Shown one piece after another: positions 43,123 through 51,056 of a stretch of DNA of 54,513 bases (position 1 is the first letter of the stretch; every line of letters begins with the position of its first letter). The notes under the pieces were generated by a model. It had not been told where the DNA came from, did not search any database, and saw nothing but the letters and a program-made list of their open reading frames with translations. The position numbers and the translations under genes are program-made. This DNA is from an uncultured archaeon (GTDB taxonomy: Archaea > Thermoproteota > Bathyarchaeia > 40CM-2-53-6 > CALIRQ01), in the NCBI GenBank assembly GCA_938042195.1, contig CALIRQ010000001.1, positions 1 through 54,513 on the forward strand. The letters run 5' to 3'.

Positions 43123-43274
43123 TGGTAGCGGGGGGTGGATTCTCGGGGCGAGGCCCTTTCGAACCACCGATCTCAGGGTGCCCCAGCCATATCGGCTTAT
43201 GAGCCCTGCGGGCTGTTCGAGCCCGGCGGCCCTTTAAACCTGGCTACCCCACCCTTGTAGATTGGAAATTCGCT
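43123..43274 (-). tRNA. Initiator tRNA-Met (CAU) with four introns
   Basis: The minus strand encodes an archaeal initiator tRNA-Met. Removing four segments leaves a 79-base cloverleaf with CCA: acceptor AGCGGGG/CCCCGCT with A73, D-stem GGG/CCC, anticodon stem CAGGG/CCCTG with three G-C pairs, loop CTCATAA and T-arm GGTGG TTCGAAT CCACC. The proposed introns are 43255-43270 (16 bases, acceptor stem between positions 4 and 5), 43213-43233 (21, D-arm), 43180-43197 (18, usual 37/38 site) and 43140-43157 (18, T-loop). Exact borders can shift by one or two bases in the last three. The A1-U72 pair and GGGTAGCCAGG D-arm identify an initiator. CCA is encoded (43123-43125). Confidence 0.78.
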
Positions 43275-43433
43275 ACGGTGGCTAAACCCCCGCCGGCTTT
43301 TTGAGTCGTTAAGGCTCCCTTAAAAGTTTTTAGAAGGGCTCGCCGGCCCCGGCCCGCCCTGCGGATAATCGCTCATTCAAGCGGAAATGGGCTCGGGACC
43401 AGCCCGATAGGAGCGATCCAGGGGAATCGGACT

Positions 43434-50947: not shown

Positions 50948-51056
50948 TGGGCCGGGCCGGATTTGAACCGGCGACCACACGGTTTCGGCGCCCCGGGGCC
51001 TATCAGCCGTGTGCTCCTTGGCCCCATCGCCGTTAACCAAGCTGAGCCACCGGCCC
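50948..51056 (-). tRNA. tRNA-Ile (GAU) with two introns
   Basis: The minus strand gives a 75-base tRNA after two 17-base segments are removed. Acceptor GGGCCGG/CCGGCCC with A73, D-stem GCTC/GAGC, anticodon stem CACGG/CCGTG with loop CTGATAA (anticodon 51002-51004), and T-arm GCCGG TTCAAAT CCGGC all pair fully. Introns are 51017-51033 in the D-loop side and 50984-51000 at the usual 37/38 site. CCA is not encoded. Confidence 0.87.

Follow-up and report, generated by a model that had tools for sequence, protein, structure and literature searches.

Positions 43123 to 43274 of the window, which is the whole stretch of 54,513 nucleotides analyzed here, raise the question of how an initiator tRNA could be obtained from a gene whose acceptor stem is itself interrupted by an intron. 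According to the original prediction, the minus strand encodes an initiator tRNA with four introns, one of them in the acceptor stem, that would have to be cleaved at four bulge-helix-bulge (BHB) sites. Direct reading of the DNA confirmed its coordinates, its strand, and the lengths of the four segments (16, 21, 18, and 18 nt). The borders of introns 3 and 4, in turn, had to be moved by one base to agree with BHB geometry, which leaves the product unchanged.

An initiator tRNA-Met gene in five exons

The initiator tRNA-Met(CAU) gene (43123..43274, minus strand) consists of five exons, with A1 at 43274 and the encoded CCA ending at 43123. When the four segments are taken out of minus-strand 43274-43123, a mature 79-mer (AGCGGGGTGGGGTAGCCAGGTTTAACCCGCAGGGCTCATAACCCTGAGATCGGTGGTTCGAATCCACCCCCCGCTACCA) is obtained that forms a full cloverleaf with a CAU anticodon, an A1:U72 pair, and an encoded CCA. 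Its stems are AGCGGGG/CCCCGCT (acceptor), GGGT/ACCC (D), and CAGGG/CCCTG (anticodon), the last of which contains the three G-C pairs (29-31/39-41) that are a hallmark of initiator tRNA-Met; the anticodon loop reads CTCATAA and the T arm GGTGG-TTCGAAT-CCACC. A purpose-written, independent spliced-alignment program assigned the locus a score of 114 with four introns, whereas the highest scores were 30 among 200 other tiles of the window and 32 among 200 dinucleotide shuffles of the locus. Both nulls rule out a chance assembly of the exons. The Rfam tRNA model, a permissive scan, and ARAGORN all left the gene at 43123-43274 undetected; for the Rfam model and ARAGORN this would be expected with so many insertions. 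Since the exons follow in normal order within 152 nt, with no 3' half upstream and no separate transcripts, the gene is neither permuted nor split. Minus-strand 43274-43123 is an initiator tRNA-Met gene broken by four introns, and the removal of these introns from its transcript is predicted from the sequence.

In the standard BHB geometry, a 4-bp central helix lies between two 3-nt bulges, one on each strand, and the cuts are made inside the bulges. This geometry was found at all four introns (P < 0.001 each), in agreement with the original prediction; shuffled introns matched the central and inner pairing at P values of 0.0003-0.0007 each. The central helices have 4 bp throughout, the inner helices of introns 1 to 4 have 3, 5, 4, and 4 bp, and the outer helices have 5, 1, 5, and 5 bp. 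Intron 1 (43255..43270, minus strand; AATTTCCAATCTACAA) lies in the acceptor stem at 4/5, a site shared by 24 initiator genes from two phyla, and its BHB combines an outer helix between leader CCACC and GGTGG (nt 6-10), a central helix GTAG/CTAC, and an inner helix ATT/AAT. Intron 2 (43213..43233, minus strand; AGGGCCGCCGGGCTCGAACAG) interrupts the D arm at 22/23, a site also used in the Bathyarchaeia genome G003; its central helix is GTTT/GAAC, and the outer helix of a single base pair, without a neighboring outer helix, makes it a relaxed BHB. Intron 3 (43180..43197, minus strand; AGCCGATATGGCTGGGGC) occupies the canonical 37/38 site, with CTCA/TGGG as its central helix and the anticodon stem as its outer helix. 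Intron 4 (43140..43157, minus strand; AGGGCCTCGCCCCGAGAA) is located in the T loop at 59/60, with a central helix TTCG/CGAG and the T stem as outer helix; in the related genome G002, a G>A change converts a G-U pair of this intron into an A-U pair. When the precursor encoded in the window is folded, its minimum-energy structure does not show all four BHBs simultaneously.

A second, intron-poor initiator tRNA, which the original prediction had named as grounds for regarding the locus as a pseudogene, was sought in the metagenome-derived assembly (93.6% complete) by pattern and by mature sequence, and none was found. The mature 79-mer matched only pieces of the 43123-43274 locus in the entire 1.27-Mb assembly, and the four other GGGCTCATAA sites in the genome are not tRNAs.

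Intron number and position in Bathyarchaeia

Two genomes of sister species in the same genus (G001 and G002) share this gene, including all four introns, and their flanking sequences diverge. The number of introns in Bathyarchaeia initiator genes ranges from zero to four, and about seven sites are used, namely, 4/5, 15/16, 22/23, 29/30, 37/38, the variable region, and 59/60. Four introns were observed in the window's genus (4, 22, 37, 59), G003 (4, 22, 37, variable), BA2 (4, 37, variable, 59), and RBG_16_50_20 (29, 37, variable, 59), so that four Bathyarchaeia lineages present four different site combinations. Four introns are thus found in five other genomes (G001, G002, G003, BA2, and RBG_16_50_20), above the published maximum of three per archaeal tRNA gene (PMC8450103, PMC4033280, PMC4390854). 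In a literature search conducted mostly outside subscription journals, we found no archaeal tRNAs with four introns; such genes may already be listed elsewhere, for example in supplementary tables. The original prediction had called this number extreme; it had overlooked that the gene is shared across the genus and that such genes recur in the class, as well as two features described below, the dependence of the acceptor intron on the leader and the leader's duplicate of the acceptor strand. This excess over the published three concerns a tRNA on which every protein depends. In initiator genes on two Thermoplasmata contigs (L077 and L129), introns occupy 37/38 and 59/60; the acceptor strand is intact there, and the leader contains no copy of it.

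An acceptor-stem intron built on the 5' leader

The BHB of intron 1 extends into the leader segment CCACCGT (43275..43281, minus strand), whose positions -7..-3 form one strand of the outer helix and whose positions -2,-1 contribute half of the central helix. In the latter, leader GT and A1G2 stand opposite intron CTAC. A census of this intron, based on a scan of 84,980 species for a split 5' strand and on the loci of the class, required the loss of an uninterrupted AGCGGGG and retrieved the same 4/5 intron in 24 initiator genes, 18 from Bathyarchaeia and 6 from Thermoplasmata. Many matches to AGCG-gap-GGGTGGGG were ordinary initiator genes with a chance AGCG in the leader and were excluded.

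In the aligned paired segments of these genes, 87% of the cells pair. Both sides were altered in 41 cells, compared to 4-13 when the partners were slid, and the covariation score was 0.241, compared to 0.05-0.09; the segments were aligned manually on the pairs proposed, a procedure that favors these pairs, and the slid controls retain the same alignment. Leader base -2 and its intron partner, for example, form A-U in 9 genes, G-C in 7, and G-U in 5. The acceptor introns of the two phyla may reflect a shared origin, transfer, or convergence. The Thermoplasmata contigs with a 4/5-intron initiator gene are L109, L115, L116, L142, L145, and L153, mostly with GCGGGG in the leader.

An acceptor-strand copy in the leader

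Farther upstream, the leader contains GCGGGG (43288..43293, minus strand), which repeats the 5' acceptor strand except for A1 and is complementary to the 3' acceptor strand CCCCGC. An exact copy was present in the leader of 22 of the 24 initiator genes with the acceptor intron, the two exceptions being L115 and L145, in which it is degenerate; among initiator genes with an uninterrupted 5' strand, it was found in 0 of 98. The copy is located 8-23 nt upstream of the gene, with a spacer of variable length. The longest pairing of the leader with CCCCGCTACC averaged 8.1 bp in genes with the intron and 3.9 bp in genes without it, with a P value of 7e-14 that overstates the independence of the sequences because these are related. 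In minimum-energy folds, the copy is paired with the 3' acceptor strand. Six genes pair through CCCCGCTACC (10 bp) and into the encoded ACC, and the corresponding run in the window has 7 bp and does not include ACC. The GCGGGG core of this pairing cannot covary since initiator tRNAs are invariant there.

A TATA-like box (AAAAACTTTTAAG; 43319..43331, minus strand) lies at a greater distance upstream than in most initiator genes lacking this kind of intron in the acceptor stem. The nearest such box starts at -47 in 17 Bathyarchaeia genes with the acceptor intron (quartiles -48 and -47), compared to a median of -35 in 55 Bathyarchaeia genes without the acceptor intron (quartiles -50.5 and -30). 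Archaeal transcription starts about 25 nt downstream of the TATA box, and the transcript would therefore begin at, or just before, the leader copy.

Leader copies in tRNA-Asp and tRNA-Glu

A partial inventory of the tRNAs of this genome, compiled from cmscan alignments and T-arm patterns, revealed that all but two of the genes with a T-arm pattern pair an intact 5' acceptor strand with an intact 3' strand. The tRNA-Asp(GUC) gene (G000:C6 about 62545-62695, plus strand; L295) reads CCA[aaagggaccataatcccttggcgag]GGGC-G-CCA, with an intron of BHB geometry at 68/69 in the 3' acceptor strand and another in the D loop, and its leader contains the exact copy GCCCTGG. The tRNA-Glu(UUC) gene (G000:C13 about 66480-66700, minus strand; L315) reads CCGGA[agggggatggcctgagcctccccccgggag]GC-ACCA, its 3' acceptor strand being interrupted at 70/71 by an intron of BHB geometry, and is preceded by the exact copy GCTCCGG. 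Both acceptor introns are conserved in G001. Among the genes surveyed, only Asp and Glu have a perfect 7-nt leader copy of their own 5' acceptor strand; the leaders of 31 other tRNA genes in the genome match in at most 6 of 7 positions. The tRNA-Glu of G003 has neither the intron nor the copy. In a class-wide pattern search, the Asp leader copy was retrieved in G000, G001, and G003 only, and three other matches were not tRNA-like.

In G003 tRNA-Asp (L342 / L330, G003:C6:37494-37659), both acceptor strands appear to be broken, and a GCCCTGG copy is found further upstream; an intron in its 5' strand looks plausible but lacks a clean BHB and is not claimed. The genome is generally rich in tRNA introns, and another tRNA gene in the window (50948-51056, minus strand) has two, in the D loop and the anticodon loop. 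The contig with the tRNA-Asp gene also carries a TPP riboswitch (G000:C6 about 85390-85502; L030:63-175) that scored 71.7 bits, above the Rfam cutoff.

A proposed processing pathway

The genome encodes two tRNA_int_endo proteins, of which L187 has the catalytic residues Tyr, His, and Lys and L188 lacks His and Lys, as assigned by eye. This pair is consistent with an alpha-beta heterotetramer of broad specificity. An RtcB ligase gene and an archaeal RNase P RNA are also present.

We consider it probable that in this five-exon gene, the sole initiator gene found, the leader copy serves as a splint in cis that holds the broken acceptor stem together until splicing is complete and RNase P trims the leader. 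Splicing itself, the tethering role, the exchange of strands, and the order of steps are what we infer from the sequence, as follows. The primary transcript would start just upstream of the leader copy, and GCGGGG would pair with the 3' acceptor strand to form a stand-in acceptor stem. This stem would form because intron 1 splits the true 5' strand (AGCG+GGG), the first bases of which are taken up, together with leader positions -7 to -1, by the BHB of this intron. The two-subunit splicing endonuclease would then excise all four introns and RtcB would join the exons, while the leader holds the 4-nt first exon to the tRNA body through cleavage and ligation. Without the copy, this exon would barely be retained between the two reactions, and the 3' acceptor strand would be unpaired. 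Once ligated, AGCGGGG would displace the copy from the 3' strand, with A1:U72 as an additional pair, and RNase P would finally trim the leader. Since the BHB of intron 1 uses leader bases, RNase P is expected to act after the splicing of this intron.

With somewhat less confidence, although still favoring it, we extend this proposal to a general one, in which acceptor-stem introns are tolerated by means of a leader-encoded duplicate of the 5' strand that acts as a temporary stem and splint, in the tRNAs for initiator Met, Asp, and Glu and in both Bathyarchaeia and Thermoplasmata, with splicing before RNase P cleavage. Tethering of a short 5' exon is not needed in Asp and Glu, whose true 5' strand is uninterrupted, and the splint argument must be extended to a short 3' exon.

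Alternative explanations

The leader copy might instead act as a lock that masks the 3' acceptor strand, often together with ACC, from RNase P, from action at the CCA end, and from methionyl-tRNA synthetase before splicing. The 10-bp pairing through CCCCGCTACC in six genes and the occurrence of copies in tRNAs in which the 3' rather than the 5' strand is broken speak for such a role, whereas the 7-bp run of the window leaves ACC free and the stand-in stem might itself attract RNase P. We regard masking as possible, at roughly the level of a minority opinion, and it is compatible with a splint.

It is rather unlikely that the copy is a functionless relic of the tandem duplication that gave rise to the acceptor introns. 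The Asp and Glu copies do repeat 7 nt exactly at a distance of 14-15 nt, a pattern to be expected from a small tandem duplication, but the initiator copy has been kept in two phyla despite a spacer that varies from 8 to 23 nt, the promoter is found at a nearly fixed distance, and the pairing reaches the encoded ACC (10 bp) in several Bathyarchaeia.

Less probable still is that the copy is the true 5' exon. In that case the upstream xGCGGGG would provide the acceptor strand, and the whole segment from it to T8, with the inner AGCG, would be a single 7/8 intron. The copy reads AGCGGGG, identical to the mature strand, in G003 and in several genes of Thermoplasmata, so that the sequence of the product alone cannot discriminate. 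However, GCGGGG is preceded by G (once by T) in the genus of the window and in almost all remaining Bathyarchaeia, and a mature strand starting with that base would lose the A1:U72 pair of the initiator; furthermore, the BHB at AGCG^...^GGG is complete, with covariation in both phyla, and a 7/8 intron in the window has no apparent BHB of standard geometry.

It is barely credible that this locus is a pseudogene and that the assembly missed a normal initiator tRNA encoded elsewhere in the genome: an assembly completeness of 93.6% leaves some room for it, but in two further genomes of the genus (97% and 95% complete) the sole match to the initiator D-arm pattern is the same gene, every exon base is identical in the three congeners, and the introns retain their BHB pairs.

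Comparison with known systems

The splint model suggests how an intron can occupy a helix that is recognized by RNase P, RNase Z, and the synthetase. It would assign to 5' leaders, usually deemed disposable, a defined role as part of a splicing motif and as a temporary replacement stem, and the combination of a leader copy with an acceptor BHB provides sequence rules for tRNA genes that Rfam and ARAGORN overlook.

Introns in the acceptor-stem region of archaeal tRNAs have already been mentioned as known (PMC12397907), and the present gene is similar in this respect. In the literature covered, which mostly excluded subscription journals, we found no description of their dependence on the leader, of an acceptor-strand copy in the leader, or of their co-occurrence in two phyla. 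The gene also resembles the multi-intron tRNAs of Thermoproteales (Pyrobaculum, Thermofilum), which have several short BHB introns, many of them non-canonical, and a two-subunit splicing endonuclease. Unlike these, with a maximum of three introns, it contains four, in the initiator tRNA, and one has a BHB that uses the 5' leader.

The same essential tRNA is disrupted in Thermofilum pendens, where the initiator is permuted, and in Nanoarchaeum equitans, where it is split; there, too, the BHB is formed partly by sequence outside the mature tRNA, and promoter distance served as evidence (PMC3218864). In contrast to both, the exons described here are in normal order within one transcript, with no permutation or split. 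Methanopyrus kandleri likewise has pre-tRNAs with introns and leaders, and both of their ends are trimmed before the introns are removed (PMC3695527). The model predicts an order opposite to this one, measured in an archaeon, in that intron 1 would be removed before the 5' end is cut.
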